Shown here in pieces: positions 5,932 through 23,760 of a stretch of 35,177 bases of DNA (positions are counted from its first letter, which is position 1; each line of letters starts with the position of its first letter). The DNA comes from Petrimonas sp. (GTDB lineage: Bacteria; Bacteroidota; Bacteroidia; Bacteroidales; Dysgonomonadaceae). The stretch is taken from assembly GCA_028698105.1 (NCBI GenBank), contig JAQVEB010000003.1, forward strand, positions 1 through 35,177, given 5' to 3'. The position numbers and the translations under genes are program-made. The notes under the pieces were generated by a model that saw nothing but the letters and a program-made list of their open reading frames with translations, did no database searches and was not told where the DNA came from.

Positions 5932-6008
5932 TATTGGGACAAGCGAATCCCGGTTCGTTTGAAAATTAACATAAAAGCGATTTGGATATCGCTTCACCCG
6001 TTAATAAT

Positions 6009-7295
6009 ATGATTTATTACCAAAACGGCTCAGCCACACATAATTTGTCTCACGAAGACCTGGAATCGGGTCTTCGTGAGGCATTCGATAAATTGGGTGA
6101 AAAGCGTAAAGTGCTCGCTATTCCGCCCGATTATACCCGACTTCCCAGCCGGGCAGGCGAACTAACGGAAATAAGCTGGGAGTACTACGGCGATAAACTG
6201 GCGGATGTTTTGCCTGCGCTCGGCACCCATACGCCGATGACCGACGAACAGATAATCCACATGTTTGGTAAAACACCGAAAGCGCTTTTTCGCGATCACG
6301 ACTGGAGAAATGATGTGGTTACGCTTGGCCGGATTTCGGCAGAGATCGTGGAAGATGTTTCCGAATATAAGGTACATTTCGATTGGCCCGTTCAGGTGAA
6401 CAGGTTGTTGGTCGAAGGGAACTTTGATCTGATCCTTTCCATCGGGCAGGTTGTTCCGCACGAAGTGGTAGGAATGGCCAATTACAACAAGAACATTTTC
6501 GTGGGAACCGGCGGAGCCGAAGCTATCAACAAAAGTCACTATGTGGGAGCGGTTTACGGTATGGAGCGCATGATGGGACGTGCCGATACACCTGTGCGAA
6601 AACTATTTAACTATGCTTCCGAAAATTTTGCGAAACATCTTCCTATCGTGTATGTGCTTACGGTGGTGGGCGTAAACAAAGAGGGAAAACAGCAGACGTA
6701 CGGATTATTCGTTGGAGACGATTTTGATGTTTTTGACCTTGCCGCTAAACTCTCACTCGAAGTTAACTTTCAAATGGTTGAAAAACCATTAAAGAAAGTG
6801 CTTGTTTGGTTAGACCCCACGGAGTTTAAAAGTACGTGGCTCGGTAATAAATCCATTTACCGGACGCGTATGGCTATTGCCGACGGCGGAGAACTTATTG
6901 TACTTGCTCCTGCATTGAAAGAATTTGGTGAAGATAAAGAAATTGATCGATTAATCCGGAAATACGGCTATTTCGGAACGCCAAAAACATTAAAGGCTGT
7001 TGAAGATAACGACGAGTTACGCAATAACCTGAGCGCGGCAGCGCATTTAATACACGGTTCTTCCGAAGGAAGGTTTTCCATTACGTACTGCCCTGGGAAA
7101 AAATCTGAAAATCTTACCAGACAGGAGATTGAAAGCGTCGGTTTTCGGTATGCCGATATCAATGAAATGATGCAAAAATACAATTTTCAACACCTGAAAG
7201 AAGGATTTAATACCCTGGAAAACGGAGAAGAAATTTATTTTATTTCGAGCCCGGCTTTAGGCTTGTGGGCTCATCGGGATAGGTTTGAGTATTAA
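6009..7295 (+). CDS. LarA-family nickel-pincer racemase/epimerase (DUF2088), candidate sugar-acid epimerase
   Basis: This 428-residue protein belongs to the lactate racemase (LarA/DUF2088) superfamily. Residues matching those of Lactiplantibacillus LarA are visible: PDYTR (Asp41, Arg44; cofactor binding), GTHTPMT (His74, like H108), VPH (His151, like H174), YNK (Lys161, like the pincer-linked K184) and KSH (His177, like the Ni ligand H200). The spacings H151-K161 (10) and K161-H177 (16) equal those of LarA, so the cofactor site looks intact. The substrate is inferred from context: uxuB, kdgK and gnd precede it, and proteins of this type in uronate clusters have been annotated as mannonate epimerases. 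No larB, larC or larE is in the window. I chose the ATG at 6009 over an in-frame TTG at 5982, which adds nine poorly conserved residues. Confidence 0.8.
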   Translation: MIYYQNGSATHNLSHEDLESGLREAFDKLGEKRKVLAIPPDYTRLPSRAGELTEISWEYYGDKLADVLPALGTHTPMTDEQIIHMFGKTPKALFRDHDWRNDVVTLGRISAEIVEDVSEYKVHFDWPVQVNRLLVEGNFDLILSIGQVVPHEVVGMANYNKNIFVGTGGAEAINKSHYVGAVYGMERMMGRADTPVRKLFNYASENFAKHLPIVYVLTVVGVNKEGKQQTYGLFVGDDFDVFDLAAKLSLEVNFQMVEKPLKKVLVWLDPTEFKSTWLGNKSIYRTRMAIADGGELIVLAPALKEFGEDKEIDRLIRKYGYFGTPKTLKAVEDNDELRNNLSAAAHLIHGSSEGRFSITYCPGKKSENLTRQEIESVGFRYADINEMMQKYNFQHLKEGFNTLENGEEIYFISSPALGLWAHRDRFEY

Positions 7296-7298: not shown

Positions 7299-8180
7299 TT
7301 ATCCCGCATTCTTGTACTCCAGCAAATAGTCGGATGGAGTGTATCTAGTGATTTTCTTGAACTGCCGGTTGAAGTTTGAGATGTTGTTGAAGCCTACTTC
7401 GTAGCAAATCTGAGATATGGATAATCTGCCTTCGCGCAGTAATTTGCACGCATAGGATACTTTTAATTCATTAATATATTCAATACACGATTTACTCGTT
7501 TTCTCCTTGAAAAAGCGACAAAATGCCGACTTATTCATTCCGGCCTTGTCAGCGATATCCTTCAAATTTATGGGCTCTAAATAATTCTTGTTGATATAAG
7601 TCAAAATTTTTATGATCCGAGGATCGTCCAATTGGGTATCAAAACTGTTTTCAAAATAATCTTCATTGAGTAATTCTTTATCCTCGGTATTACTCATCAT
7701 GGATAGAATCTTAATACATTCAATTAATAAGTCTATGTTTTTTAAATTCAGCGCTTTCCTCAATCTTTTCTTAATTGAATCAATCTCTTTGCTGTCTTTG
7801 AAATAAATTCCGTATTGTGATTCTTCCAGTAAGTTCTTTATTTTGTGAAATTCGGGATAATTTTCAATTGCATGAAAGAAAAAATTTTTTGAAAATTGAA
7901 GGATAATTGCATTCACACGTATGTTTGGATTATTTTGATAATAAAGAGGATCACTTTTATACATATGCGGAAGAAAACTACCTAATAATACCAAATCTCC
8001 TTCAGAATAGGGTTCGATATTATTTCCTACAAACCTTTTGCCGGAGCTTTTAATTACATAAATGATCTCACACTCGCTGTGAAAATGCAAAGGATATTTA
8101 AAATGATCATAATCGCACCATTTTATTTTTACCGGAGATCCGGTACTGAAATTCAGTTGTTCATGCATTAATTTAGTCAT
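7299..8180 (-). CDS. AraC-family transcriptional regulator with N-terminal cupin sensor
   Basis: This 293-residue regulator combines an N-terminal cupin-like ligand domain with a C-terminal AraC-type double helix-turn-helix domain. The cupin part shows YPLHFHSECEIIYVI and, further on, LPHMY at about 29-74. The HTH part runs from about residue 185 to the end, with LKDIADKAGMNKSAFCRFFK as the first helix-turn-helix and ISQICYEVGFNNISNFNRQFKK as the second. Such proteins usually sense a small sugar and activate neighbouring catabolic genes. It is convergent with the LarA-like gene (3 bases between stop codons) and divergent from the DUF2264-SusCD operon, which is its likely target. Paired 21-bp-phased repeats at 8396-8432 are a plausible binding site. 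The ATG at 8180 was chosen; Met5 is an alternative. Confidence 0.92.
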   Translation of the reverse strand: MTKLMHEQLNFSTGSPVKIKWCDYDHFKYPLHFHSECEIIYVIKSSGKRFVGNNIEPYSEGDLVLLGSFLPHMYKSDPLYYQNNPNIRVNAIILQFSKNFFFHAIENYPEFHKIKNLLEESQYGIYFKDSKEIDSIKKRLRKALNLKNIDLLIECIKILSMMSNTEDKELLNEDYFENSFDTQLDDPRIIKILTYINKNYLEPINLKDIADKAGMNKSAFCRFFKEKTSKSCIEYINELKVSYACKLLREGRLSISQICYEVGFNNISNFNRQFKKITRYTPSDYLLEYKNAG

Positions 8181-8213
8181 CGTATGCTCACTTAAGTATT
8201 CTAAAATAATTAT

Positions 8214-8227
8214 TGTAACGTTTTACA
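8214..8227. promoter_or_regulatory. Short dyad upstream of the AraC-type gene
   Basis: TGTAA (8214-8218) and TTACA (8223-8227) form a perfect 5-bp dyad with a 4-base spacer, 34 bases upstream of the regulator start codon. It could serve autoregulation, but an AT-rich gap can easily contain such a dyad by chance. Confidence 0.2.
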
Positions 8228-8229
8228 TA

Positions 8230-8357
8230 GATAGGCTTACGCGATAGTTCCCCTAACGGCGAAGATAGACTCACTTCGTTCGCGATAAAGTCGCGGCGTT
8301 TAATATTTCAAGAGGCTTTCTGCTTATCAGCGTAGCCTATCGCCGCAGGCTTATCAG
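8230..8357. repeat. Compact inverted/direct repeat island in the regulator-operon gap
   Basis: The left end (8230-8242, GATAGGCTTACGC) matches the reverse complement of 8330-8343 apart from one inserted base. GCTTATCAG occurs twice, at 8322-8330 and 8349-8357. GCGATAAAGTCGC (8282-8294) is a small hairpin. The stretch is visibly richer in G+C than the AT-rich DNA on either side. The 13-mer at 8270-8282 (CTCACTTCGTTCG) recurs at 31679-31691. This looks like a degenerate non-coding repeat element, perhaps MITE-like. No open frame of note is inside it. Confidence 0.4.
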
Positions 8358-8395
8358 ACGAAAATATCACAATAATTCTTAGCATTTACTTATTA

Positions 8396-8432
8396 ATTGC
8401 AAATATAGTACATTTCATCGCAAATATACTAC
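8396..8432 (+). promoter_or_regulatory. Candidate AraC-type operator: two direct repeats with 21-bp period
   Basis: AT(T/C)GCAAATATA(G/C)TAC occurs at 8396-8411 and again at 8417-8432, with 14 of 16 bases identical and start points exactly 21 bp apart. That is two helical turns, the arrangement AraC-family activators commonly use. The repeat abuts a candidate -33 box at 8433, where an activator would contact RNA polymerase, and it lies between the divergent AraC-type gene and the DUF2264 operon. The link to this regulator is inferred from position. Confidence 0.5.
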
Positions 8433-8461
8433 TTGCGTTTAACTAATTTATTTTATTTTTT
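8433..8461 (+). promoter_or_regulatory. Candidate promoter of the DUF2264-SusCD operon
   Basis: A TTG at 8433-8435 is followed after 18 bases by TATTTTTT (8454-8461), which fits the Bacteroidota TAnnTTTG -7 box except for its last base. It would start transcription near 8468, leaving a leader of about 60 bases before the ATG at 8530. The adjoining upstream direct repeats raise its plausibility. An imperfect -7 box is typical of activator-dependent promoters. Confidence 0.4.
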
Positions 8462-8529
8462 TGGAACATAATTTAATATCCGTGGCGATTCCGAAAGAAC
8501 ACGGCACGCTGAATCTTAATATCAAAAAA

Positions 8530-10584
8530 ATGAAGAGAAAGTTTGAAGTAACAAATCCCGATCATGATTTAAGTCCGATCACGGGGATGAACAGGGGGCA
8601 CTATATCGAATGCGCCAAATATCTTCTGGAACGGGCTTTTACCCACATTTCTTCGATAGAACAGCATCTTAGTTTCCCCACAGTTCCGGGTAAAACTTAC
8701 CCTCAGCCAAATGCACCGGAATGGCGTTATCGAGCAGCTGATTTTGAGGCCTTGGAGCGAACTTTTACCCTGGCAGGTCCATTGATTCATATTGATCCGG
8801 AAACTTCCATCAACGGAATAAATTTAAGGGATTATTACGCGTTGCATTTTTACAGGGCTTTTACCCCCGGAAACCCCAACTCCATACCTTTGCCCGAAGA
8901 GTTGCCCGATTCAAATTATCAATTTACCTGTGAGTTCGGAGGATTATTCAAAACGTTGCTTCTTATGCCCGATACCATCTGGTCTCAATATACGGAAGAA
9001 CAGAAAAACGAAATGGTAAAAACCATTTCAAAATGGGGCCATCACAGAACAACGCAGAATAATTGGCGCATTTTTAATATCACTACGCTCTCGTTTTTGA
9101 AGAAACACGGATACGAGATTGATGATGAATTGCTGAAAAGTCATTTGCTATGGATAGCATCTTACCATTCAGGGAACGGATGGTATTTGGAACAGACTTA
9201 TAATTATTACTCCATCAGTCTTTTTATTGTCTATACCACCATCTGGAACAGGACATTCGGAGATGAATATTATCCAGAGATTTCTGCGATAATTGAACGA
9301 TCTGCTCAGAAACTGATGGAATCATTACCCAGTTTCTTTGGTCGCGACGGGTATATCAACATGTGGTCGCGGAGTATATGTTACAGGACTTGGGTTTCGG
9401 GAGCTTTTCCGGTGTCTTTTATGCTGAAAAATCCAAATCTTTTGGATCCGGGATGGGCCAGACGGCTTTGTTCAGGCTCGTTACTACAGTTTGTAACCCG
9501 CGAAGATTTTTATTATAATGAGATTCCGAGTCTTGGATTTTATGGACGAAAGGAATATATGGTACAAAATTATAGCTGTGCCGGAAGTCCGTTTTTGATG
9601 TTCCTGCCGTTCATTTGTCTTGCCCTACCTGAGGATTCACCGTTTTGGATCGCTAAGGAAAATGACGGTTTTTGGGAATCGCTGGGGGATAATTCTAAAA
9701 AAGTGATACTTAATAATCCCGGTCTGGTATTGGTAAATCATGGAAAAAATGGAACCTCTGAGATTATCCCTGGAAAGGTATATTATGACGATCCCAATTA
9801 TTCAAAACTATCCTACAATACCCATTTTCCGTGGGAAGATCATAATCCCGACGGAGGAACCTCAATGGAATATTCCTTTCGTAGTCTCGATCCCCGGGAT
9901 TTAAGAGGTGATGATGTGAATTTTTATCTTACCGGACTGACGGTTGATAACGATGCGCTGAAAAATCAGAAATTCACCATTTCACAAAGTATGTTGTACA
10001 ATGGGGTCATAAACAATGTGCTTTATCGTCAGGCTATTATGCGGAAGCCGCCTAATAACGGGGTCGGTTACATTATTGATTTGGCAGAAATTACCATTCC
10101 CGGGGGAGTTATCAGAGTTGATCGCACCCGTTTGGCATTTGAGTATGAGATTACCCTCGGTCATTATGGATTACCTCATTTGGAAGGTAAAGACGCTATC
10201 GTGGAGCAATTTGAGGAAAACGGAAAGAAGGTAATTACCGCTACCATTCCCGGAAGAAGTTTAGCTTTGATATCTTACAGAGGATGGGATCAGATTGAAA
10301 GTTTAGTTCATTCTTACCGCAATGCCGAGGCTGATGAAAGCACGGTGATATTCGTCCGGAAACGGCGTTTGGACAAAAATCCGCCGATGGAGCTGCTGAT
10401 AACCGTTATGTTGCACAAAATGAGTGATAGCCCGTGGAGTGAAGAAGAATTAAATCCTATAAAGGATATCGAGATAATGGATGTAACAGCCAACTATTCG
10501 ACACTGGGTGCAATTATTACTCTGTCTGACAATAGTAAATTCAACATTGATTTTGAAGATATTGACGGACGGAGAAGTTGCTAA
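8530..10584 (+). CDS. DUF2264-domain protein, cytoplasmic, predicted alpha/alpha-barrel carbohydrate enzyme
   Basis: This 684-residue protein resembles the DUF2264 family (PF10022). Family-like stretches are NPDHDLSPITGMNRGHY at the N-terminus, NNWRIFNITTLSFLKKHG in the middle, YHSGNGWYLEQTYNYYS after that, and the WSRSICYR segment corresponding to the family's GRS-x-x-YR motif. A beta-rich C-terminal part follows. No signal peptide or membrane segment is visible, so it probably acts in the cytoplasm on an imported oligosaccharide. My recollection is that some relatives have been classed with uronidases, which would suit the neighbouring uronate cluster, but I cannot verify this. It is the first gene of the operon. 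I chose the ATG at 8530 because an in-frame TTG at 8461 overlaps the candidate -7 box and adds non-family residues. Confidence 0.82.
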   Translation: MKRKFEVTNPDHDLSPITGMNRGHYIECAKYLLERAFTHISSIEQHLSFPTVPGKTYPQPNAPEWRYRAADFEALERTFTLAGPLIHIDPETSINGINLRDYYALHFYRAFTPGNPNSIPLPEELPDSNYQFTCEFGGLFKTLLLMPDTIWSQYTEEQKNEMVKTISKWGHHRTTQNNWRIFNITTLSFLKKHGYEIDDELLKSHLLWIASYHSGNGWYLEQTYNYYSISLFIVYTTIWNRTFGDEYYPEISAIIERSAQKLMESLPSFFGRDGYINMWSRSICYRTWVSGAFPVSFMLKNPNLLDPGWARRLCSGSLLQFVTREDFYYNEIPSLGFYGRKEYMVQNYSCAGSPFLMFLPFICLALPEDSPFWIAKENDGFWESLGDNSKKVILNNPGLVLVNHGKNGTSEIIPGKVYYDDPNYSKLSYNTHFPWEDHNPDGGTSMEYSFRSLDPRDLRGDDVNFYLTGLTVDNDALKNQKFTISQSMLYNGVINNVLYRQAIMRKPPNNGVGYIIDLAEITIPGGVIRVDRTRLAFEYEITLGHYGLPHLEGKDAIVEQFEENGKKVITATIPGRSLALISYRGWDQIESLVHSYRNAEADESTVIFVRKRRLDKNPPMELLITVMLHKMSDSPWSEEELNPIKDIEIMDVTANYSTLGAIITLSDNSKFNIDFEDIDGRRSC

Positions 10585-10640: not shown

Positions 10641-11897
10641 ATGAGGTACTTAATATTTTTACTGATATCACTATTTTCAACACACCTGATCGCGCAGAAA
10701 ACGGTGAAATTCTCATTAAAAGCGGATAGAGACTATTTAGATGTTCCGGTTTCCTTTTCACTCGATAATATTGATTATAATATCGATAGTTTACATCTAA
10801 ATCTGTATGAAGTTACAAAATCTGGTGAGAAGTTGATCCCGAGCCAATTGGAGTCGGGGCATACAGCTCGTCTTTGGTTCATACTTGAAGGTATTTCCCC
10901 AAAAAATTCCACACGAAAATTCGTTTTAAAATTCACTGAAAAAGAATCCTCGCAGAACCCCGATGATATTATTCGAATAAAAAAGTCGGATGGAAACCTT
11001 GTGTTGTTTTCAAAAGAAAAACCGGTGTTGAGTTATCGCTATGAAACGATGTTCCCTCCAACCGGAGTGAATCCCCTGTTCAAAAAATCCGGATTTATCC
11101 ATCCGTTGTGGTCGCCGCAGGGAGAGATGCTATCCCGCGTGCAACCTCCCGATCACTATCATCATTACGGAATTTGGGGTCCTTGGACGTTGACGCATAT
11201 CGGTGATAGAAAGGTGGATTTCTGGAATCTTGCCGAAGGGGAAGGAACCGTAAAATTCGCAGGATTTTTATCGGAAACATCGGGCGAAGTATTTTCCGGA
11301 TTTAAAGCGCTTCAACAACACATGGACTTCGGTGCAAAAGGCCCTGATCAGATTGCGATGAACGAGGTATTGGATGTAAGAGTCTGGAATAACGCCAAAG
11401 GAGTTTGGCTAATTGACTATACAACGGCGATCAATACGTCGTTAGATAGCGGAATTATGTTTGATGCTTACAGATACGGAGGAGGAATAGGTTTCCGTGC
11501 AACGGAAAAATGGACAAAGGATAATTGTACTGTACTGACATCGGAAGGAAAAACCAGAATTGATGCGGATGGCAGCAATGCCCGATGGTGTATTGTGGAA
11601 GGGGAATCGGGAACGCCCGAAGGCCGTTCGGGAATTTTATTTCTGAGCCATCCGGCAAATCGTGCTCATCCGGAGCCGATGCGCGTTTGGCCTTTGGATG
11701 GGAATGAAGGACGAGGCGATATGTTTTTCGAATTTACTCCCATTCGTCATAAATCGTGGGAATTGAAAAAAGGGAACGATTATGCTTTGAAATACAGAAT
11801 GATAGTTTTCGATGGCAAAATAGACAGTAAAACCGCAGAAATGTATTGGCTTAGCTTTTCGTCAACTCCAAAAATTGAAATTGAATCAAATAAATAA
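10641..11897 (+). CDS. DUF6807/PmoA-like secreted protein (first copy)
   Basis: This 418-residue protein has a Sec signal peptide (1-19, ending LIAQ). The central HPLWSPQGEML...PPDHYHHYGIWGPW segment (154-182) is typical of the family annotated PmoA or DUF6807 (PF14100). Despite the name it is unrelated to methane monooxygenase. The biochemical role is not established to my knowledge; a carbohydrate role is inferred because such genes sit in glycan loci beside Gfo/Idh/MocA oxidoreductases. The His-rich DHYHHYG motif looks like an active or metal site. It follows DUF2264 by 56 bases and precedes a second, shorter family member by 9 bases. An in-frame TTG at 10578 lies inside the preceding gene's end and gives no signal peptide, so I chose the ATG at 10641. 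Confidence 0.82.
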   Translation: MRYLIFLLISLFSTHLIAQKTVKFSLKADRDYLDVPVSFSLDNIDYNIDSLHLNLYEVTKSGEKLIPSQLESGHTARLWFILEGISPKNSTRKFVLKFTEKESSQNPDDIIRIKKSDGNLVLFSKEKPVLSYRYETMFPPTGVNPLFKKSGFIHPLWSPQGEMLSRVQPPDHYHHYGIWGPWTLTHIGDRKVDFWNLAEGEGTVKFAGFLSETSGEVFSGFKALQQHMDFGAKGPDQIAMNEVLDVRVWNNAKGVWLIDYTTAINTSLDSGIMFDAYRYGGGIGFRATEKWTKDNCTVLTSEGKTRIDADGSNARWCIVEGESGTPEGRSGILFLSHPANRAHPEPMRVWPLDGNEGRGDMFFEFTPIRHKSWELKKGNDYALKYRMIVFDGKIDSKTAEMYWLSFSSTPKIEIESNK

Positions 11898-11906: not shown

Positions 11907-12800
11907 ATGAAAAAAATTGTATTTTTTATCCTATTGACGATGTCTTTTTATCCCACCGTCTTTTCCCAGTCAAAAGTAACGGCAGAAAAGGTAGGAGATA
12001 AAATTGAAATCAGGGTAAACGGAAATCTTTTCACAAGTTATATCCTCTCCGAATTTGAAAAGTATCCGTTTTTTTATCCGGTTAACGGCCCTTCAAATGC
12101 TTCAGTAACTTCTTTTCGAAATGCCAATTATCCCCATCACAGTTCACTTTTTTTCGGATGCGACAGGGTAAACGGAGGTAATTACTGGCAGGAAGGATTG
12201 GATCGGGGACAAATCATCTCATTACGGGCCGATATCGTAGAAACTGGTGGGGAAAAAGCTGTAATCGAAAACGAATGTATATGGAGGCGTCCCGGTGCAG
12301 ATGCGCCTGTTAAAGACAAACGCATAATAACTGTTTCGGCTCCTTCAAAAGATAAATTTCAAATTGACTTCGATGTCACCATGGAAATGCTGATGGATGT
12401 AGTTATTGAAAAAACAAACCATTCGCTTTTCAGCGGCAGAATGGATCCTGATTTGGCAGTAATTAACGGTGGGATTATGATAAATGCAGAAGGACAAAAA
12501 GGGGAGAAGGATACGTTTGGAAAAAAATCATCCTGGATGGACTGCTACGGCACGAGGCAGGGAAAAACAGAAGGAATGGCTATCATGCAACATCCGTCAA
12601 ACGACTGGTATCCTGCGCCATGGTTTACACGCGATTACGGTTTCTTTTCGCCCACCCCAATGTATTGGCCTAAAAACGATAAAAATACAACCTTAAAGAA
12701 AGGACAATTAATAAAACTCAGGTACAGGGTTCTCGTTCACTCGGGTAACCATATTGAGGCCGGTATTGCTCAGGAATTTGAGAAATATAAATCAGAATAA
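11907..12800 (+). CDS. DUF6807/PmoA-like secreted protein (second copy)
   Basis: This 297-residue protein has a Sec signal peptide (about 1-20, ending TVFSQ). The motif block YPFFYPVNGPSN...NYPHHSSLFFGCD (53-86), followed by NGGNYW, is typical of the shorter DUF6807 subgroup. It carries a PHHSSLFF block where the longer neighbour has DHYHHYGIW, so the two are probably homologous but far apart in sequence. It starts 9 bases after its paralogue and ends 13 bases before the oxidoreductase gene, indicating tight co-expression. A role in handling oxidised sugars in the periplasm is my inference; no activity can be read directly from the sequence. Confidence 0.8.
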   Translation: MKKIVFFILLTMSFYPTVFSQSKVTAEKVGDKIEIRVNGNLFTSYILSEFEKYPFFYPVNGPSNASVTSFRNANYPHHSSLFFGCDRVNGGNYWQEGLDRGQIISLRADIVETGGEKAVIENECIWRRPGADAPVKDKRIITVSAPSKDKFQIDFDVTMEMLMDVVIEKTNHSLFSGRMDPDLAVINGGIMINAEGQKGEKDTFGKKSSWMDCYGTRQGKTEGMAIMQHPSNDWYPAPWFTRDYGFFSPTPMYWPKNDKNTTLKKGQLIKLRYRVLVHSGNHIEAGIAQEFEKYKSE

Positions 12801-12813
12801 AAACTTAAATCAA

Positions 12814-14190
12814 ATGGAAAGAAGAATGTTTATAAAAAAGGCAGCGGCAACAGCAGTAGGAACGGTAGTTTTTCCTACCATCGTACCCTCGTCCGTGTTC
12901 GGTAAAAATGCACCCAGCAATAAAATTAATATCGGACAAATAGGATGTGGGCGAATTGCACGCGATCACGACATAGCAGAAACTATCAGGTACGGACAGG
13001 CACAGTTTATAGCCGTGTGTGATGTGGACAAAAAAAGACTTTTGGACGGAAAGAAGTACATTGACGATTATTATTCGAAGAAAACAGGAAACAGTAAGTA
13101 TTCGAATGTCAAAATGTACGATGATTACAAAGAGATGCTTCTGAATAAGGATATTGATGCGGTCATTATCAGCACACCCGATCATCAGCATGCTGAGCCG
13201 GCAGCACGGGCTGCACTGGCGAAAAAAGACATTTATTTGCAAAAACCCACTTCACTGACGGTCACCGAAGGTAGATTTCTGAGCGATATTGTTAAAAAAC
13301 AAGGAGTTATTTTTCAGGTTGGCACTCAGCAGCGTTCGTCGCCACAATTCAGAATTGCTGCCGAGTTGGTTAGAAATGGAAGAATCGGTAAGTTGCATAC
13401 CGTAAAGATCGGATTACCCGGAGACCCGTCGGGTCCAGAAGCGGCGGAAATGCCTATACCTAAAAATCTCAACTACGATATGTGGCTGGGTTCGACTCCC
13501 GAAGTTTATTATACCGAGATACGCGTCCATCCTCAGGACAATTACGGACGCCCCGGATGGTTGAGATGCGAGCAGTTCGGTGCAGGGATGATTACCGGAT
13601 GGGGACAGCATCATTTTGACTCAGCTGCATGGGGAATGAATACGGAATATACAGGACCTATTTCTGTTGAAGCAGTGGCTCAGTTTCCGAAATCGGGATT
13701 GTGGGATGTACACGGTGATTTTATGGTAAAGGCTGAATACGAAAACGGCATCACAATGTACACCAGCGGAGGATATCCGAACGGTATCCGTTATGAAGGT
13801 ACGGATGGGTGGATATTTGTTTCGCGCGGGAACTACGTGGCTTCATCAAGCGATCCGGTAACACAGGCCAATAGTGCAAAAGCATTGGATGCCAGTGATC
13901 CGAAGATTTTAACTTCTGAAATAAAAGAAAATGAAATTCATCTTTACAAGAGTGATAATCAGCATGGGAACTGGCTCGATTGTATAAAATCGAGAAAAGA
14001 GCCTATTTCTCCGGTTGAAATCGGACATAGGGCATGCACGGTTTGTCTTATCAGCCATATCGCCATGAAGTTACCCGGAAAACTGGAATGGGATCCGAAA
14101 GCTGAAAAATTCAAGAACAACGAAGTGGCCAACTCAATGTTGAGCCGTCCGCAGCGATTCCCGTATGGTACAGATTATATTAAAATTTAA
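12814..14190 (+). CDS. Gfo/Idh/MocA-family oxidoreductase with Tat signal
   Basis: This 458-residue protein opens with a twin-arginine-type signal (ERRMFIKK, then an Ala/Val-rich stretch), so it is predicted to be exported folded with its cofactor to the periplasm. The Rossmann loop is GCGRIAR (44-50), TPDHQH lies at 121-126, and the usual EKP motif is QKP (143-145), keeping the catalytic-site Lys144. Family members oxidise or reduce sugar hydroxyls with tightly held NAD(P). In glycan loci they are candidates for making 3-keto sugars. The substrate is unknown. It follows two DUF6807 genes and precedes an atypical relative. I chose the ATG at 12814 because an upstream TTG frame at 12754 reads through the end of the previous gene and would bury the signal peptide. 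Confidence 0.88.
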   Translation: MERRMFIKKAAATAVGTVVFPTIVPSSVFGKNAPSNKINIGQIGCGRIARDHDIAETIRYGQAQFIAVCDVDKKRLLDGKKYIDDYYSKKTGNSKYSNVKMYDDYKEMLLNKDIDAVIISTPDHQHAEPAARAALAKKDIYLQKPTSLTVTEGRFLSDIVKKQGVIFQVGTQQRSSPQFRIAAELVRNGRIGKLHTVKIGLPGDPSGPEAAEMPIPKNLNYDMWLGSTPEVYYTEIRVHPQDNYGRPGWLRCEQFGAGMITGWGQHHFDSAAWGMNTEYTGPISVEAVAQFPKSGLWDVHGDFMVKAEYENGITMYTSGGYPNGIRYEGTDGWIFVSRGNYVASSSDPVTQANSAKALDASDPKILTSEIKENEIHLYKSDNQHGNWLDCIKSRKEPISPVEIGHRACTVCLISHIAMKLPGKLEWDPKAEKFKNNEVANSMLSRPQRFPYGTDYIKI

Positions 14191-14204
14191 TTAAACGAAA
14201 CTGA

Positions 14205-15614
14205 ATGAAAATTAGATTTTATAGCTCAGTAATAATGCTTGGTCTCCTTGTAATCTCATCTTGCAACATGCAAAAAGAAAAAAAGGAAGCATCGCCAAAG
14301 GTAACGTTCACTGGAAAAGAAGGTGAAATAAAATTGGTGGTGTTGGACCCGGGGCATTTTCATGCGAGTTTGTTGCAGAAATTCCATCAAAAACAAGTGA
14401 ATGACACGGTATTGGTGTACGCTCCGGATGGTAACGAACTTAGTCAGTATTTAGCAAGTATTGAAGGATATAACAATCGTTCTGAAAATCCCACTTCTTG
14501 GAAAGAGGTGGTGTATTCGGGCAATGATTATCTTGAAAAGATGCTTGATGAGAAAAAAGGAAACGTAGTGATTCTTGCCGGTAATAATCTCAAAAAAACC
14601 GAATATATCTCAAAAGCGATCAATGCAGGGTATAATGTTCTTTCGGATAAACCCATGGCCATTAATACCGAAAACTTCGAACTGCTTAAATCGGCCTTTG
14701 ATAGTGCACGTGCACACAATGTTTATCTGTATGACGTAATGACAGAAAGGTATGATATAATGAACGCAATTAGTCGTGAAATCATGAAAAATAAAGAACT
14801 TTTTGGAGATATAAACCCGGGAACGAAAGAAGCTCCTGCGATAAAACTCGAAAGCGTTCATCATTTCTACAAAGAAGTATCGGGGAACACACTTGTTCGC
14901 CCGGCTTGGTTTTATGATGTGGATCAACAAGGCGAAGGAATTGCCGATGTGGCTACGCATTTGGTTGATCTGGTACATTGGATATGCTTTCCTGATCAGA
15001 CGATTGATTATGAAAACGATATTGCCGGAATAACAGCCAAACATTGGCCAACCATAATGACATTAACCGAGTTTTCGCGATCAACGAAATTAGATACATT
15101 CCCTGCTTATCTTCGTAAATACGTGAATAATAAAGGTGAATTGGAAGTATTCGCCAACGGAACTATAAATTATAGCGTAAATGGTAAAAATGCAGAAGTT
15201 ACAGTGCTTTGGAATTATCAGGCACCCCAGGGAGCAGGCGACACATACAATGCTTCCATAAGGGGAACAAAAGCCTCAATAAGCATTGTACAGGATAAAT
15301 CCACGAATTATGTAGAACAACTCTACATACTTAGTAATGAAAACGACACGGATTTTGAGAACAAATTAAGTTCGGCTGTCGCTGGTTTACAAAGTAAGTA
15401 TCCTTATATAGCATTAAGTCCGGTTTCAAACGGCAAATATCTCATAAAGATTCCTGTTGAAAACCGAAAAGGACACGAAGACTATTTTGGATTTGTAGCC
15501 CGAAAGTTTTTCGACTTTTTAGTGCAAGACAGCATTCCTGAATGGGAAGTGTCTAATATGTTAACGAAATATTACATCACAACCACTGCATTGGCGGCGG
15601 CGATGAAAAATTAA
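14205..15614 (+). CDS. Gfo/Idh/MocA-like lipoprotein with putative oxidoreductase C-terminal domain
   Basis: This 469-residue protein has a lipoprotein signal ending LLVISSC (Cys20). The fold resembles Gfo/Idh/MocA, and the C-terminal half looks like the 'putative oxidoreductase C-terminal domain' (PF16490). The N-terminal loop after the first strand is DPGHFHAS (48-55), not a Gly-rich Rossmann loop, and the EKP motif is replaced by DKP (148-150). Cofactor binding is therefore uncertain; it may bind substrate or act without a nucleotide. It lies 14 bases after the canonical Tat-type family member and 51 bases before SusC, so it belongs to the same transcript. Being lipid-anchored, it probably works at a membrane surface next to the SusCD importer. 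Confidence 0.82.
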   Translation: MKIRFYSSVIMLGLLVISSCNMQKEKKEASPKVTFTGKEGEIKLVVLDPGHFHASLLQKFHQKQVNDTVLVYAPDGNELSQYLASIEGYNNRSENPTSWKEVVYSGNDYLEKMLDEKKGNVVILAGNNLKKTEYISKAINAGYNVLSDKPMAINTENFELLKSAFDSARAHNVYLYDVMTERYDIMNAISREIMKNKELFGDINPGTKEAPAIKLESVHHFYKEVSGNTLVRPAWFYDVDQQGEGIADVATHLVDLVHWICFPDQTIDYENDIAGITAKHWPTIMTLTEFSRSTKLDTFPAYLRKYVNNKGELEVFANGTINYSVNGKNAEVTVLWNYQAPQGAGDTYNASIRGTKASISIVQDKSTNYVEQLYILSNENDTDFENKLSSAVAGLQSKYPYIALSPVSNGKYLIKIPVENRKGHEDYFGFVARKFFDFLVQDSIPEWEVSNMLTKYYITTTALAAAMKN

Positions 15615-15665
15615 TATTTTATAAACCCAGAAAAAACTGAATATCACAATTTTAATTTATTTATC

Positions 15666-18600
15666 ATGGAAGTAAAAAAAAGAAGGTTTTCTTTACTCTC
15701 ACAGGACAGAGTGAAGAATAAATTTATGAGACTATTTAAAGTCTGTACTGTTTTGGTTTTTCTTTTCTTTTTCTCTCAACACTCTTTTGCACTGAACGAA
15801 TTGACAGTGCAACAATCAGGGAAAACCATTACCGGTCATATCGTTGACGCGAAAGGTGAATCCCTGATCGGAGTAAACGTGGTAGAAGCAGGAACAACCA
15901 ACGGTACTATAACAGATGTGGATGGGAATTACACCCTTAACCTGACGACATCAAATCCGATGTTAAATTTCACATATATCGGATTCAAAGCTCAGACAGT
16001 CAATGTAGGTAACAAAACGAGGATCAACGTAGTAATGGAAGAAGAAACCAGTTTCTTGGATGAAGTGGTTGTTATTGGTTATGGCACCATGAGGCAAAAA
16101 GACCTTACCGGTGCGATATCCACCATTAAAGCGGAAGAACTCAAAGTTGAGAGCCCTCGTTCAATTCAGGATTTATTGCGAGGCAATTCGGCCGGTTTGA
16201 ATATTGGCTTTGCCAATACCGCAAAAGGTGACGCTGGATTGGAAATCAGAGGAAGAAATACCCTGAAAGCAGGTTCATCTCCGCTAATTGTGTTGGATGG
16301 TGTTATATACGAAGGTTCGTTGACCGATATAAATCCTATGGACGTTGCATCCATAGATATATTAAAGGATGCAAGCTCGGCAGCAGTGTATGGTGCAAAG
16401 GCCGCGAGTGGGGTTGTTGTTATTTTAACTCAAAAAGGCGGACGCGAAGGCAAACCTTTGGTATCTTTTAATACCTCCGTTGGGTTAGTACAATCGGCTA
16501 ATCAACCCGCAATATTGGATGCCGCAGGTTTTATACAATACAGAAGGGCCTATGAAATAGGGAAAAATACCGATACTTATCTTCAGACATATCCCGAAAT
16601 CTTTGAGGATCCCAGAACATTACAGAATGTTAGTCAGCGCGATTGGTATAATTATGACAAAAAAACGCCGGTAGAAACGTTTACCGACGAAGATCTTTTG
16701 CGAACCTGGGTTACACGTTTGGAACTGAAAGCTCCTGAAATAGACAATTTTATTTTAAACAGAACGACCGATTGGGCAAAGAAAGTATTCCATACAGGAT
16801 TACAACAAGACTATCAGGCGTCTATATCAAATAGAACCGATGATGTTTCTTATTATTGGTCGTTAGGTTATTCTGACAGGGAAGGAATTATCGTGGGAAA
16901 CCGTTTTTCAACTTTCCGAACCCGGTTGAATCTTGAGTCAAAGATCACTTCCTTTTTGAAAATAGGTGTGAATTCCGGCTTTTCATCGCGCAATGAAGGA
17001 TACTTACAAGCTGATTGGGGTCAAATGGTTCGGATATCACCTTACGGAGCAGATGAGATAGGCAACAAAGAAGTAGATGAATACATCTGGAAATATCCGA
17101 CATCGGATGTTACCCCTGTAAACCCGTTTTTCGATAATTTGTATAGAGACAGAAAAGATTGGTACAATACCTTAAACGCCAATATGTATGCAATTGTGAA
17201 TCTGCCGTTTGACATTGAGTATCAATTAAACTTCATTCCTTATTACGAATGGCGGGAGTATTACAATCACGATTCATCAAAGAACTTCTCTTGGGCCGCA
17301 AGCGGTGGCAGTGCGGAGCGTACAACTTACAAAATTTATTCCTGGCAGCTTGATAATGTATTAAGATGGAAAAAGAGATTTAACGATCGTCATAATATTG
17401 AGACGACGTTCCTCATAAATGCAGAACAAAGACAATATTGGTCTCAGAAAATGACAGCAACCCAATTTTCGCCGAATGATATCTTGGGATATCACCGAAT
17501 GCAAGCCGGCACCGTACCACTAAATGAAAGCAACGATACATATCAAACGGGCGATGCGATGATGGGCAGGTTGTTTTATTCATATTTAGACCGTTACATG
17601 ATTACTGCTTCAATAAGACGAGACGGATTTTCGGCTTTCGGCCAAAAAAACCCCCATGCTATTTTTCCCGCTGTTGCGTTGGGTTGGATTTTTACATCTG
17701 AAAAATTTGCCGAACCTATAACGAGTTGGTTTGATTACGGAAAATTGCGATTCTCCTGGGGTGAAAACGGAAATAGAGATATCGGGCAGTATGAAGCGTT
17801 GTCAGACATGACATCCGGACCGCATCCCTATATTGACCAAAATGGAAACGTATATATAACTTCTCAGATTTATGTCAACAGAATGTCAAATCCAAACCTA
17901 AGATGGGAGCGTACGGCTTCATTGAACGTCGGATTGGATTTCTCATTCTTGAACAATAAACTAAGCGGAGCTTTAGAGAGTTATGTAGCCACCACAAACG
18001 ATTTATTAGTAGATAGAGCATTACCCGAAATAATTGGTTATAACAGCGTTGCTGCTAATTTAGGGAAGCTCCAAAACAGGGGTTTCGAAGCTACGGTAAA
18101 TACGAATCTCATCTCAGGACCTAAATTTGCGTGGAATGCATCCGCAAATTTCTCCTTAAACCGACGCAAAATAGTACACTTGTATGGAGATATGATTGAT
18201 ATTAAAGACGAAAATGGAAATGTTGTCGGACAAAAAGAAGCCGATGATATTAAAAATCGTTGGTTCATAGGTCAAGATCCTGATCGTATATGGGATTACG
18301 AACGCATTGGCGTGTGGCAAAAAGAAGAAGCAACGGAAGCTGCAAAATATGGTTTACAGCCTGGTGATTTTAAATACAAAGATCAAAACGAAGATGGTGT
18401 AATGACGGATGCGGACAGAATATTCCAGGGCTATACAACACCGCGCTTCAGATGGACATTACGAAACGAATTTATTTTCAACAGGAATCTTTCTTTGTCC
18501 ACCATGTTTTATTCTTACTGGGGGCAATACGGTTCATTTAACAGAGCTGCGAATGTTTCAAATTTTCCCGATAGATGCTCGGAATATGTACAGCCATACT

Positions 18601-18875
18601 GGACTGTAGAAAACAGAATAAATGATTATGCCCGAATAGGATCAAAAAATATAGGGAACAATTATCTTCAAAAGTCTTTTATTCGTTTTGAGAATATAAC
18701 TTTGTCGTATAACTTCCCCAAAAGTTTGATACAAAAATTTTATGTACAAGACTTGCGTTTAGCACTCTCTGTAAGAAACGTAGCAGTCTTCTCACCACAT
18801 TGGAACTTTTGGGATGCCGAATTAAGTGATCCAACTCCTCGTACTTATAATATTAGTTTGAATTTTTCACTTTAA
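15666..18875 (+). CDS. SusC/RagA-type TonB-linked outer-membrane transporter
   Basis: This 1069-residue protein is a SusC-type beta-barrel that imports glycan fragments across the outer membrane with energy from TonB. After a hydrophobic signal (about 22-42) come a carboxypeptidase-regulatory-like domain (ITGHIVDAKGESLIGV, from about 55 to 125), a TonB-box region (DEVVVIGYGT, 132-141), the plug domain (LRGNSAGLNI and DGVIYEGSLTDINP recognisable) and a long barrel ending in LSDPTPRTYNISLNFSL. Length and domain order are normal. No N-terminal anti-sigma-interacting STN domain is seen, which agrees with control by the AraC-type regulator. The signal begins about 20 residues in, so Met21 (15726) is an alternative start. 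SusD follows after 12 bases. Confidence 0.97.
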   Translation: MEVKKRRFSLLSQDRVKNKFMRLFKVCTVLVFLFFFSQHSFALNELTVQQSGKTITGHIVDAKGESLIGVNVVEAGTTNGTITDVDGNYTLNLTTSNPMLNFTYIGFKAQTVNVGNKTRINVVMEEETSFLDEVVVIGYGTMRQKDLTGAISTIKAEELKVESPRSIQDLLRGNSAGLNIGFANTAKGDAGLEIRGRNTLKAGSSPLIVLDGVIYEGSLTDINPMDVASIDILKDASSAAVYGAKAASGVVVILTQKGGREGKPLVSFNTSVGLVQSANQPAILDAAGFIQYRRAYEIGKNTDTYLQTYPEIFEDPRTLQNVSQRDWYNYDKKTPVETFTDEDLLRTWVTRLELKAPEIDNFILNRTTDWAKKVFHTGLQQDYQASISNRTDDVSYYWSLGYSDREGIIVGNRFSTFRTRLNLESKITSFLKIGVNSGFSSRNEGYLQADWGQMVRISPYGADEIGNKEVDEYIWKYPTSDVTPVNPFFDNLYRDRKDWYNTLNANMYAIVNLPFDIEYQLNFIPYYEWREYYNHDSSKNFSWAASGGSAERTTYKIYSWQLDNVLRWKKRFNDRHNIETTFLINAEQRQYWSQKMTATQFSPNDILGYHRMQAGTVPLNESNDTYQTGDAMMGRLFYSYLDRYMITASIRRDGFSAFGQKNPHAIFPAVALGWIFTSEKFAEPITSWFDYGKLRFSWGENGNRDIGQYEALSDMTSGPHPYIDQNGNVYITSQIYVNRMSNPNLRWERTASLNVGLDFSFLNNKLSGALESYVATTNDLLVDRALPEIIGYNSVAANLGKLQNRGFEATVNTNLISGPKFAWNASANFSLNRRKIVHLYGDMIDIKDENGNVVGQKEADDIKNRWFIGQDPDRIWDYERIGVWQKEEATEAAKYGLQPGDFKYKDQNEDGVMTDADRIFQGYTTPRFRWTLRNEFIFNRNLSLSTMFYSYWGQYGSFNRAANVSNFPDRCSEYVQPYWTVENRINDYARIGSKNIGNNYLQKSFIRFENITLSYNFPKSLIQKFYVQDLRLALSVRNVAVFSPHWNFWDAELSDPTPRTYNISLNFSL

Positions 18876-18887
18876 TACATTTGCTAT

Positions 18888-20792
18888 ATGAAATATATAA
18901 CATTACATAAACGGTATATCATTATTTTCGGACTGATTTTAATGATGTTTGGATGCAGTGATAACTGGCTCGAACCAAAACCCTTATCTTTTTATACGCC
19001 TGAGAATACTTATGTAGATGCCGCGGGTTTCTATGCAGCGCTGACAACTTGTGAGCGAAACATGCGTCACGAGTATTTCGGGGATGGTGCACCCATCTTA
19101 ACAGAGTTCATCCTTTCCGATATGGCCGTGGAGGGAACAACGGACAAAGCCGGCCCGCAGATGGATTTGGACGTTTCATTATTACCCGATGCGAACTTAA
19201 ACAGTACTGACTTTACTCGCGTTGGGTGGTATTGGTACGAAGGGTACAAAGGAATTAAATATGCCAATGTAGTTATTTCTAAGATCGATCAGGCCACATA
19301 TAAAGACGAAGCTGAGAGAAATGCGGTTCTAGGATCAGCATATTTTCACCGGGCATACAGGTACAATAAACTCGTTCATCAATTTGGGAATGTTCCATAT
19401 TTGGATTGGGAGATAACAGAGCCGAAGTACGATTTTTACACTTACGATCGTTGGTCAATTCTTGAAAAAATGCTGCCCGATCTCGAGTTTGCCTACAAGT
19501 GGGTACCAGAGAAGGTTGATAGGGGAAGAACTTCCAAGGCGGCATGTGGTGTATTGTTAATGAAAGTTTGTATGGCTTTAGGGAATTTTGATCGGGCTAT
19601 TGAAGTAGGAAATGAAATAGTAGCCACACATCCATTAATGACACACAGATTTACGGTGAATAAAACAAAGCCGAGAACAAACTTAATGCATGATCTTCAC
19701 AGTGTAGAAGCAAAACTGGATATGAGCAATACCGAAGGGTTGATGTATGTGGTTTCTTATCCTGAAGTTGATGGTTCCGATAGAATTCAATCCATGCGCA
19801 ACGGAGTCCCCTTTTGGAATAGCGGAAATGTGAAAACGCCAACCGGAAAAGCAGGAACGAGCGTTAGTATTGCTGCCGACGAAACGAATCCGTGGATGAA
19901 TTTGAACAAAAGTTATGGAAGAGGTATCGGACGTTTACGTACCACATGGTATTACTCTCATAAAATATGGACTGAAAAAGAAAAGAATGATTTACGCGGG
20001 ATTTACAATCGAGACAGTTGGAGAAGTCCGGAGGATCTTCAATACAATCATCCTGATCTGAAAAAGAATAATGACCCTTGGTATGGACAAAATCTTGTTA
20101 AACCCACGGCAATGTCGGTTGAAGATACAATACGTACTTGGTTTTCATGGCCTCATTATAAGTTGTTTGTCCCCGATCCGCTGCAAACACAATGGAATGG
20201 AGGGGAAACTCCCTGGTATATTTATCGTTCGGCTGAGGTATATTTGCTGATGGCGGAGGCCTATTATTGGAAAGATCAACCATTACAAGCTGCTGAAGCA
20301 TTGAATGTAGTCCGACTTCGTGCAGGAGCAGACGCACTAACGGCTGCAGATGTTAATATTGGTGCAATAATAAATGAAAGAGCCAGAGAATTGTATTATG
20401 AAGAGAATAGAAAATCTGAATTAACAAGGATAGCCTATACTTTTGCGAAGACCGGAAAGCCGTGTGAAGTATTTGGCGGAAGAGTTTACCGACTCGACAA
20501 CTTTTCCGGCCCGGGAGGTACAAGCTCCAATATAAAACAGGAAGGAATAAACTTTTATTATGATTGGATCATGAAGCAAAGTAATTTCTACAATAAAGGA
20601 GTAAAACATAAATGGGCAGAATATAAAATGAGTGTTCATCATGTCTTGTGGCCGGTGCCTGCAAATGCTATCAATACCAATATAAAAGGGATTATCAATC
20701 AAAATATTGGTTATCCCGGAGCCGAGAATAACGTAGAGCCTTTAATTGTACCAAAAGACGGAACAGTATTAGGCCCCGACGCTAATAAATAA
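18888..20792 (+). CDS. SusD/RagB-type outer-membrane glycan-binding lipoprotein
   Basis: This 634-residue protein is the surface lid partner of the preceding SusC. It has a lipoprotein signal ending MMFGC (Cys23), followed by SDNWLEPKP and FYTPENTY, the usual SusD opening. TPR-like helices are recognisable (YFHRAYRYNKLVHQFGNVPY at about 157-176). The C-terminal SusD signature appears as YLLMAEAYYW, LNVVRLRAGA and INERARELYYEE. The length is normal or slightly long for the family. It is the last gene of the operon, with a strong hairpin terminator directly after it. The ligand is not predictable from sequence alone; the uronate cluster upstream suggests, but does not prove, a uronate-bearing glycan. 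Confidence 0.96.
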   Translation: MKYITLHKRYIIIFGLILMMFGCSDNWLEPKPLSFYTPENTYVDAAGFYAALTTCERNMRHEYFGDGAPILTEFILSDMAVEGTTDKAGPQMDLDVSLLPDANLNSTDFTRVGWYWYEGYKGIKYANVVISKIDQATYKDEAERNAVLGSAYFHRAYRYNKLVHQFGNVPYLDWEITEPKYDFYTYDRWSILEKMLPDLEFAYKWVPEKVDRGRTSKAACGVLLMKVCMALGNFDRAIEVGNEIVATHPLMTHRFTVNKTKPRTNLMHDLHSVEAKLDMSNTEGLMYVVSYPEVDGSDRIQSMRNGVPFWNSGNVKTPTGKAGTSVSIAADETNPWMNLNKSYGRGIGRLRTTWYYSHKIWTEKEKNDLRGIYNRDSWRSPEDLQYNHPDLKKNNDPWYGQNLVKPTAMSVEDTIRTWFSWPHYKLFVPDPLQTQWNGGETPWYIYRSAEVYLLMAEAYYWKDQPLQAAEALNVVRLRAGADALTAADVNIGAIINERARELYYEENRKSELTRIAYTFAKTGKPCEVFGGRVYRLDNFSGPGGTSSNIKQEGINFYYDWIMKQSNFYNKGVKHKWAEYKMSVHHVLWPVPANAINTNIKGIINQNIGYPGAENNVEPLIVPKDGTVLGPDANK

Positions 20793-20806
20793 CTATCTTC
20801 GACGTC

Positions 20807-20857
20807 AAAAAAACTTCCTCTCAAGAAATTAATATTTTTCTTAAGAGGAAGTTTTTG
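20807..20857 (+). terminator. Strong intrinsic terminator after susD
   Basis: The arms AAAAACTTCCTCTCAAGAAA and TTTCTTAAGAGGAAGTTTTT pair over 20 bases with one C/A mismatch around a short AT loop. The stem ends in a T run on the + strand and an equivalent run on the - strand. It lies 15 bases past the SusD stop and separates that operon from the next one. Confidence 0.9.
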
Positions 20858-20906
20858 TAAATTTCATGATTCTTGAAAAAGACACAGCTAAATGAGGTTT
20901 TTTTCG

Positions 20907-20914
20907 TATCTTTA
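20907..20914 (+). promoter_or_regulatory. Possible -7 box of the Gfo-DUF1080-Gfo operon
   Basis: TATCTTTA (20907-20914) fits the Bacteroidota TAnnTTTG box except for the last base, and lies 42 bases before the ATG at 20956. No convincing -33 TTTG is at the right distance. A new promoter is expected here because the preceding operon ends in a strong terminator. Confidence 0.35.
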
Positions 20915-20955
20915 CGACAAATAAATGGGTTTTTATTAAAAAACAGAACTATATC

Positions 20956-22377
20956 ATGACAACAAGAAGGCAATTCATAAAAAAAACGGCATTCGCTTCT
21001 GCCGGATTGGCTTTAAGTGGTATTTACACTAAAACCAATGCAGCTAGCTACAGCCGAATCATGGGAGCAAACCAAAAAGTAAACCTGGCGCACATCGGTA
21101 TCGGGAATAGGGGCTGGGAAATCATTAACGATTTCGATAAAACCGGTTTAGCAAACGTGGTTGCGCTTTGCGATGTGGATTTGGGTGCCGAACACGCTCA
21201 AAAAGCCCTGGCTAAATTCCCAAACGCGAAGCGTTTTAAGGATTTCAGACAGATGTTCGACAAAATGGGCAACGAGATTGAAGCCGTGGCCATTGCAACC
21301 CCCGATTTTTCTCACTTTCCCATCGTGATGGCGGCTATGGCAGCCGGTAAACATGTGTACGTTGAAAAACCGCTCACAAGAACATTTCACGAATCGGAAC
21401 TTATCATACAGGCAGCAAAAAAATACCCCAAAGTGGTTACCCAAATGGGTAATCAGGGACATTCCGAAGGAAATTATTTTCAGTTTAAGACCTGGAAAGA
21501 CGCAGGAATCATCAAAGATGTAACGGCCATTACCGCGCACATGAACAACGTACGCCGCTGGCATAGCTGGGACCCGAACATTAAGAAATTCCCAGCTGCA
21601 GAACCCATCCCCGAAACATTGGACTGGGATACGTGGTTGTCGGCTCAGGCTTATCACGACTACAATAAAGATTTTGTGAACGGGCAATGGCGCTGCTGGT
21701 ACGATTTCGGAATGGGGGCCCTCGGCGATTGGGGTGCGCATATTCTCGACGCAGCGCATGAATTTCTCGATCTTGGGTTACCCGAAGAAGTAACGCCATT
21801 GCGCCTTAGCGGACATAACGACTACTTCTTTCCCATGTCCAGCACCATAGAATTCAAGTTTCCAAAACGCGGAAATATGCCTCCGGTGGTTATCACATGG
21901 TACGACGGACTGGACAACATCCCGGCGGTTCCCGAAGGATACGGCGTTTCCGAAATAGATCCGAATATCCCGAGTGTGGGCGGAGGTAAAATCCAACCCG
22001 CCAAACTAAATCCGGGAAAAGAAATTTACAGCAAGGAACTTACGTTTAAGGGAGGTTCGCACGGAAGTACATTGAGTATTATTCCTGAAGCGAAAGCCAA
22101 AGAAATGGAGAAAAAGTTGCCCGAGGTGCCCCGAAGCCCCTCCAACCATTTTGCGAACTTTTTACTCGCCTGTCAGGGAAAAGAAAAAACGCGTTCTCCT
22201 TTCGAAATCTCAGGGTCGTTAAGTCAGGTATTTTGTATGGGTGTGGCTGCACAACGCCTGAACCGGAAAATCATTTTCGACCGCGAAACAAAACGAGTGA
22301 CCAACGATGCATTCGCTGATGCTTATTTAACGGGAATCCCTCCTCGCAAAGGATGGGAAGAGTTTTACAAAATTTAA
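20956..22377 (+). CDS. Gfo/Idh/MocA-family oxidoreductase with Tat signal
   Basis: This 473-residue protein has a clear twin-arginine signal (TTRRQFIKK, then [11 protein letters not shown]), so it should act in the periplasm. The Rossmann loop GIGNRG is at 48-53, LCDVD at 71-75 marks the second strand, and YVEKPL (135-140) holds the catalytic-site Lys138. The later [15 protein letters not shown] stretch is typical of the secreted Bacteroidota branch. These enzymes are candidates for oxidising a sugar hydroxyl to a ketone with a bound NAD(P). The substrate is not predictable. It begins a tight three-gene unit with the tandem DUF1080 gene (14 bases later) and another family member, an arrangement consistent with oxidation followed by elimination of the glycosidic bond. 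Confidence 0.92.
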
Positions 22378-22391
22378 AATTATATAAGACT

Positions 22392-23750
22392 ATGAAGAAG
22401 TATTTTATTATGTTATTCGCAACAATGATCGTAGTTTCCGCTTCGGCGCAGGAACCGAAATGGCAAGACTTATTTAACGGCCGCAACCTGCGTGGCTGGA
22501 CAAAATTAAACGGAACAGCCGAGTACAAGGTGCAAGACAAGACCATAACCGGTATTTCGAGAATGGGAACGCCCAATACTTTTTTGGCTACCAACAAGAT
22601 GTATGGCGATTTTATCCTCGAATTTGATTTTAAAGTAGATGACGGCCTTAATTCGGGCGTGCAATTCCGTAGCAACAGTTTGAAGGAATATAACAACGGA
22701 CGAGTGCACGGATACCAGTTCGAGATTGATCCTTCGGACAGAGCCTGGACAGGCGGAATTTACGATGAAGCCCGCCGCGGATGGCTGTATCCGCTGACAT
22801 ATAATCCGATCGGACAAAAGGCTTTCAAGCACAACCAGTGGAACAAGGCGCGTATCGAGGCTATTGGAAATTCCATCCGTACGTGGGTGAATGGCGTACC
22901 GTGTGCCGATCTTTTGGACGATATGACCAAAACCGGATTCATCGCGTTGCAGGTTCACGCCATCAATAAAGAAGAACTTGTCGGTAAAACGGTTTCCTGG
23001 CGCAACATTCGTATTCTTACCGACGATCTGGATAAATTCAAAACCAGAGAAAACATAGATGGAATCGTGCAGATGAACACCATCGCGAATACCATTTCCG
23101 ACAGGGAAGCCCGCGAAGGCTGGAAACTTTTGTGGGACGGAAAAACAACCAACGGATGGCGTGGCGCCAAGCTCGATGGTTTCCCCGAAAAAGGATGGGT
23201 TGTGGATAACGGCGTTCTGAAAGTACTGAAAGGAACCGGAGGAGAATCCACCAACGGTGGCGATATTATCACAACACGGTTGTACAAAAACTTCATGCTG
23301 AAGGTTGATTTCAAAATAACCGAAGGCGCCAACAGCGGAATAAAATATTTCGTGGATCCCACATTGAACAAAGGTGCAGGCTCGGCTATCGGTTGCGAGT
23401 TTCAGATATTGGACGATAAAAACCATCCCGATGCCAAACTCGGCGTCAACGGAAATCGCACGCTTGGTTCGCTCTACGACCTGATTCCCGCTCCCGCCGA
23501 TAAACCGTTCCGTCCCGGATTTTTCAACACGGCAATGATCGTTGTCAAAGGCAATCACGTGGAACATTGGCTCAACGGCGTGAAAATAATCGAATACGAA
23601 AGAAATAATCAGGAATGGAACGCATTGGTGGATTACAGCAAGTATAAAGACTGGCCTAACTTCGGCAACTATGAAGAGGGATATATCCTTCTCCAGGATC
23701 ATGGCGATGAAGTGTGGTTTCAGAACATCAAAATCAAAGAACTGGAGTAA
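22392..23750 (+). CDS. Tandem DUF1080 (3-keto-disaccharide hydrolase-like) secreted protein
   Basis: This 452-residue protein has a Sec signal peptide (1-20, ending SASAQ) and two DUF1080 (PF06439) domains. The first begins [13 protein letters not shown] (24-36) and continues through LNSGVQFRS. The second begins [14 protein letters not shown] at about 249 and continues through GANSGIKYF and a W-x-N-G-V-K-I-x-EY segment. DUF1080 proteins are beta-jelly-roll enzymes linked to cleavage of 3-keto-glycosides made by Gfo/Idh/MocA oxidoreductases. Here such oxidoreductases sit on both sides, 14 bases upstream and 10 bases downstream. Two complete-looking domains in one chain suggest either two activities or one catalytic and one binding copy. 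I chose the ATG at 22392 because an in-frame ATG at 22353 overlaps the previous gene and buries the signal peptide. Confidence 0.9.
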
Positions 23751-23760
23751 ATTTTTTATT

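Follow-up and report, generated by a model that had tools for sequence, protein, structure and literature searches.

The araI1-araI2 site of E. coli and the XylS sites at the Pm promoter are composed of direct half-sites 21 bp apart that end by the -35 element of the activated promoter, and at the E. coli ara locus the regulator gene is divergent. AraC-type direct repeats with a 21-bp period have already been described in Bacteroides, and the site studied here is a further example. In one study, 21-bp-period direct repeats are predicted for the AraC-family regulator RhaR of Bacteroides, and positive control by RhaR is cited (PMC3870299). Similarly, another study gives predicted direct repeats averaging 21 bp as the sites of AraC-type HTCS proteins in Bacteroides thetaiotaomicron, and assigns the uronate regulators UxaR, UxuR and KdgR of this species, by prediction, to the LacI family (PMC3878776). 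Promoters of the Bacteroidota sigma-ABfr type carry a -7 element TAnnTTTG and a -33 element TTTG or TTG (PMC7366714).

We analysed a stretch of 35,177 nucleotides of Petrimonas sp. DNA, which is referred to as a whole as the window. A preliminary description of the window had reported two 16-bp direct repeats with an exact 21-bp period, next to a divergent AraC-type gene. We found the distal half-site (repeat 1), ATTGCAAATATAGTAC, at 8396-8411 on the plus strand with its core GCAAATATAGTA at 8399-8410, and the proximal half-site (repeat 2), ATCGCAAATATACTAC, at 8417-8432 on the same strand with its core GCAAATATACTA at 8420-8431, giving the arrangement GCAAATATAGTA-N9-GCAAATATACTA at 8399-8431 with a period of 21 bp. 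The two repeats are identical at 14 of 16 positions in the window sequence and their starts are 21 bp apart; a repeat finder independently recovered the pair in a 19-nt form (8393-8411 and 8414-8432, 84%), in agreement with the reported repeats. The 349-bp gap was shuffled 1000 times with its dinucleotides preserved, and 10 of the shuffled sequences contained a 14/16 direct repeat at any spacing of 16-60 bp. At this frequency of about 1%, the sequence of the repeat alone is suggestive and inconclusive, and it is the comparative data that secure it. The consensus half-site is GCAAAnATArTA. The window holds five copies of the shorter motif GCAAATATA, where 0.39 would be expected, at 8399, 8420, 10621 and 28398 and, on the minus strand, at 20239. 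The copies at 10621 and 28398 were indeed single and unphased as had been described, while the minus-strand copy at 20239 had been overlooked. The lone copies at 10621, 20239 and 28398 were considered as extra operators and rejected, since no in-phase second core accompanies them among exact matches. The copy at 28398-28406 coincides with a minus-strand -7 box, TATATTTG, directed toward a gene starting at 28269. A comparison of the regulator-operon gap with Rfam gave no match of note to a structured RNA.

The gene to the left of the repeats (7299-8180, minus strand) encodes an AraC-family regulator of 293 aa with a weak cupin/AraC_binding N-terminus and a C-terminal HTH_18 domain, and the gene on the opposite side encodes a DUF2264 protein, as expected from the divergent AraC-type gene of the first account. 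The profile matches were 3.4e-20 for HTH_18, a profile that also matches AraC, MarA, RamA and HTCS chains, and 1e-16 for HTH_AraC; the C-terminal double helix-turn-helix domain (HTH_18) places the protein in the AraC/XylS family. AraC_binding and Cupin_2 matched in all six orthologs, while the window protein fell below the cut-off for both (0.0036 and 0.0032). The locus resembles the HTCS sites in having an AraC-type HTH and direct repeats of about 21 bp upstream of a susCD-type operon (PMC3878776). However, HTCS proteins are membrane histidine-kinase fusions, whereas no kinase or receiver domain was found in the 293-aa regulator with its weak cupin-like N-terminus by the profile check, which sets it outside the HTCS group. 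The present site differs from the RhaR site (PMC3870299) in the group of its regulator, in the sequence of the half-site and in its target genes. UxaR, UxuR and KdgR govern uronate genes like those in this cluster but are LacI proteins, whereas the cluster regulator here belongs to the AraC family.

The DUF2264 gene (8530-10584, plus strand) is the first gene of the target operon, with an ATG at 8530 and an N-terminus common to the orthologs. It is followed on the same strand by two DUF6807 genes (10641-11897 and 11907-12800), which in several relatives are preceded by their own copy of the site, and by the remainder of this probable operon (12754-25131), encoding GFO/IDH/MocA oxidoreductases, SusC, SusD and a protein of the 3-keto-disaccharide hydrolase family. 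On the left of the regulator, and convergent with it, are genes for an alginate-lyase family protein, an SDR, a PfkB kinase, a 6-phosphogluconate dehydrogenase and a LarA-like protein. The last of these (5982-7295, Lar_N domain at 7e-10) lies within the uronate gene group, and a LarA-like protein is found beside the regulator in relatives too (80-88% identical). Judged by its translation, the gene that diverges from the regulator in a number of relatives is similar to a mannonate dehydratase. Given this gene content, a uronate or oxidised-sugar theme is likely for the cluster, and it suggests a uronate or oxidised-sugar metabolite as the ligand of the regulator.

We then compared the gaps upstream of related regulators. 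Orthologs at 79, 67, 61, 58 and 41% identity all carried an upstream tandem of TTGCAAATATA-like cores. In a motif-free self-match (at least 11/14, lags 12 to 44, 300 bp upstream, regulators at least 40% identical), lag 21 was found in 20 of 28 nonredundant gaps and any other lag in 1-5, one of the 28 being N-masked and matching trivially at every lag. Lag 21 was also the sole outlier among wider AraC-family relatives (12 loci versus 0-2). When 118 nonredundant gaps were scanned with the consensus half-site, 39 tandems scored at least 17 at lag 21; at a score of at least 19, there were 22 loci at lag 21 and at most 3 at other lags. Among regulators of at least 39% identity, 24 nonredundant gaps, the window included, held a lag-21 tandem with a score of at least 17, although these sites were drawn from related genomes and the counts are not independent. 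The conservation in relatives with the same regulator that an operator should show was thus observed. No tandem was found at L149, nor within 300 bp of the 60%-identical ortholog at L039/L138 under the chosen start codon; in the genome of the latter (G062), a weaker site is present at a distance of about 9 kb from the regulator. The close gap L139 was N-masked and unreadable.

The site was also specific. Six genomes, about 21 Mb in total, were searched for the pattern GCAAATATAGTA-N9-GCAAATATA-N-TA with up to 3 mismatches, which gave 6 matches, against 0 for the reversed control. Five of the six were the regulator gaps of five genomes, and the sixth (G021) preceded a DUF2264 ortholog located 16.5 kb away from the regulator. 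A looser scan with the promoter spacing in 16 genomes gave 17 matches and 1 control match. Matches outside the regulator gaps in these genomes head DUF6807 (L179, L180, L182) or DUF2264 (G085, G021, G124, G123) genes, and a further one, in G062, is separated from the regulator by about 9 kb. Where relatives have the cluster divided among several transcription units, DUF2264 and DUF6807 genes have copies of the site of their own. The tandem was present at each of the seven close DUF2264 orthologs that could be read (86-100% identical, that of the window included), even where the regulator is distant (16.5 kb in G021, about 25 kb in G124), while in G123 the DUF2264 tandem is a second site in the same gap; it was found at none of four distant DUF2264 homologs (32-37%). 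The repeats are identical in G021 and G124, whereas immediately outside repeat 1 the two sequences are unrelated. In L182, the gene upstream of the site is co-directional and there is no divergent promoter. In another relative (L038:2111-2566), the DUF6807a match is in two separate pieces, and a weaker tandem-like site precedes it at 2566.

Moreover, the tandem stands at a fixed distance from the -7 box of the outward promoter. At the DUF2264 gene of the window, a TTG at the -33 position lies at 8433-8435 on the plus strand, 13 nt past the start of core 2, and a -7 box, TTTTTTTG, at 8456-8463, with its TTTG starting 40 nt past the start of core 2. Compared with the sigma-ABfr consensus, the window has the TTG at -33 and one mismatch at -7; the imperfect -7 box of the preliminary description thus holds (TTttTTTG at 8456-8463 versus TAnnTTTG). 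A scan for promoters of the sigma-70 type gave fewer sites than shuffles and is uninformative in this phylum; the araI1-araI2 and XylS promoters are of the sigma-70 type, whereas the promoter here is a Bacteroidota -33/-7 promoter. With offsets counted from the first base of core 2 as zero, we found the outward -7 TTTG at +40 in 28 of the 39 tandem sites and at +41 in 3, with at most 3 at other offsets. A perfect TAnnTTTG stood at +40/41 in 22/39 sites and a TTG at +13, the -33 position, in 12/39. The 40-nt spacing persisted at a regulator only 30% identical (L031), and the spacers have no common sequence. A motif-blind map anchored on each outward TAnnTTTG showed a single peak, at lag 21 and 33-43 bp. 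When a consensus score of at least 18 was required together with the same geometry, 22 of the 195 outward boxes inside gaps qualified, compared with 5 of the 4471 located elsewhere; two or more of these five lie in front of target-type genes (DUF2264 in L141, DUF6807 in L040). With the -7 box centred at -7 and the start site so predicted at about 46-47 nt past the start of core 2, the operator would span about -67 to -36, repeat 1 covering about -67 to -57 and repeat 2 about -46 to -36. As at class II AraC-type sites, the direct half-sites are 21 bp apart and the proximal one abuts the -33 element. The window and several close relatives share a T rather than an A as the second base of the -7 box, and such an imperfect box in the close group is consistent with an activator-dependent promoter.

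Taken together, the conserved tandem, its movement with the target genes and its fixed distance to the -7 box argue for the AraC-type activator site proposed in the preliminary description. Judged from these sequence features, it is very probable that the repeats form the operator of the adjacent AraC-family regulator, for class II activation of the DUF2264-DUF6807-SusCD operon. One regulator dimer would bind both half-sites, as 21 bp corresponds to two helical turns and would place them on the same face. The proximal half-site runs up to the -33 element of the DUF2264-DUF6807-SusCD promoter, whose -7 box is weak; from this arrangement, the bound, ligand-activated regulator may recruit RNA polymerase. 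As each core also reads as a -7 box on the opposite strand, next to the regulator gene, the same occupancy would probably limit transcription of the regulator's own gene. Binding by the adjacent regulator, activation rather than repression, dependence on a ligand and self-control are in each case what we infer. The sign of control is unmeasurable from sequence alone and AraC-family proteins are able to repress, so the bound regulator might instead repress the divergent operon; this is improbable, as the position at -67 to -36 by the -33 element, the weak -7 box of the close clade and the 21-bp direct repeat make up an arrangement typical of activators in this family, such as at araI and the XylS sites.

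We also considered that another AraC-type protein of the genome binds the site. There are further AraC-type proteins in the genome (10 matches), and G085 retains the site beside a mere remnant of the regulator gene. However, the presence of the site follows the ortholog, with about one site cluster per genome and always near this regulator, which makes a different binder very unlikely. In G085, a close relative, what is left of the regulator gene (L155:947-1400) is a decayed stretch of about 400 bp that separates LarA from an intact operator and an intact DUF2264 promoter.

On the regulator strand, both repeats read as -7 boxes. The copy of TATATTTG in repeat 1 (8400-8407, minus strand) is a perfect Bacteroidota -7 box aimed at araC, a putative regulator promoter, and that in repeat 2 (8421-8428, minus strand) is a second araC-directed -7-like box that is less conserved in relatives. 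The lag-21 repeat coincides with araC-directed boxes in the gaps of relatives. In most of them, 16-60 bp separate repeat 1 from the start of the regulator gene, and the leader would accordingly be short; a -33 box was not recognisable on this strand. The repeats might then be merely tandem -7 boxes of the divergent regulator gene, with no operator at all, since both minus-strand cores match TAnnTTTG and repeat 1 lies at this short distance from the regulator start. This is very unlikely. The tandem heads DUF2264 and DUF6807 genes away from the regulator, repeat 2 may lose the match to TAnnTTTG while retaining TAGTA (GTTAAAATAGTA in L042), and the 40-nt spacing to the outward promoter would be left unexplained. 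Tandem -7 boxes alone are largely refuted as an explanation by the tandem at the co-directional DUF6807 gene in L182, which has no divergent promoter, and at distant DUF2264 genes. The core conservation could in part reflect promoter function on the regulator strand. A chance repeat in AT-rich intergenic DNA, for which the shuffled gaps speak at about 1%, is refuted by the conservation and specificity across relatives and is left with a negligible probability. Under the operator reading, self-control of the regulator through operator occupancy is likely but unproven, because the cores read as -7 boxes on the regulator strand, beside the regulator gene.

The 21-bp repeat and the 40-nt spacing to TAnnTTTG also occur at L031, L014, L011, L083 and other AraC-family loci (30-38% identical), and this layout at distant loci suggests a candidate phylum-wide rule. 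In a limited literature search, no description of the fixed 40-nt spacing was found. We tentatively propose, with rather less than even confidence, that stand-alone AraC-family regulators of the Bacteroidota share one rigid cassette, in which the second copy of the 21-bp repeat starts 36 bp before TAnnTTTG and the distal copy also serves, on the opposite strand, as the -7 box of the regulator gene. A single binding event would then turn the operon on and the regulator gene off. If this were true, targets would be predictable phylum-wide from the spacing alone. The strict rule (a 21-bp period followed by 40 nt to the TTTG of the -7 box) could be used to find other Bacteroidota AraC-type sites and to predict regulons. 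The present site also offers a trio of operator, promoter and regulator ready for experiment, at an uncharacterised glycan-use locus (DUF2264, DUF6807, oxidoreductases, SusCD).

A MITE-like repeat of 200 bp (8193-8392), absent from the preliminary description, takes up most of the space that separates the tandem from the regulator gene. It lies between the regulator start and the operator, ends in TAAGTA/TACTTA with TA on both sides, and has at least 4 copies in the genome at 99.5-100%, with partly inverted ends. Without the element, the regulator start would be about 20 nt from the first core, which is the distance in relatives, indicating that the element was inserted between the operator and the regulator gene. 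The MITE-like repeat adds 200 nt to the putative leader of the regulator.
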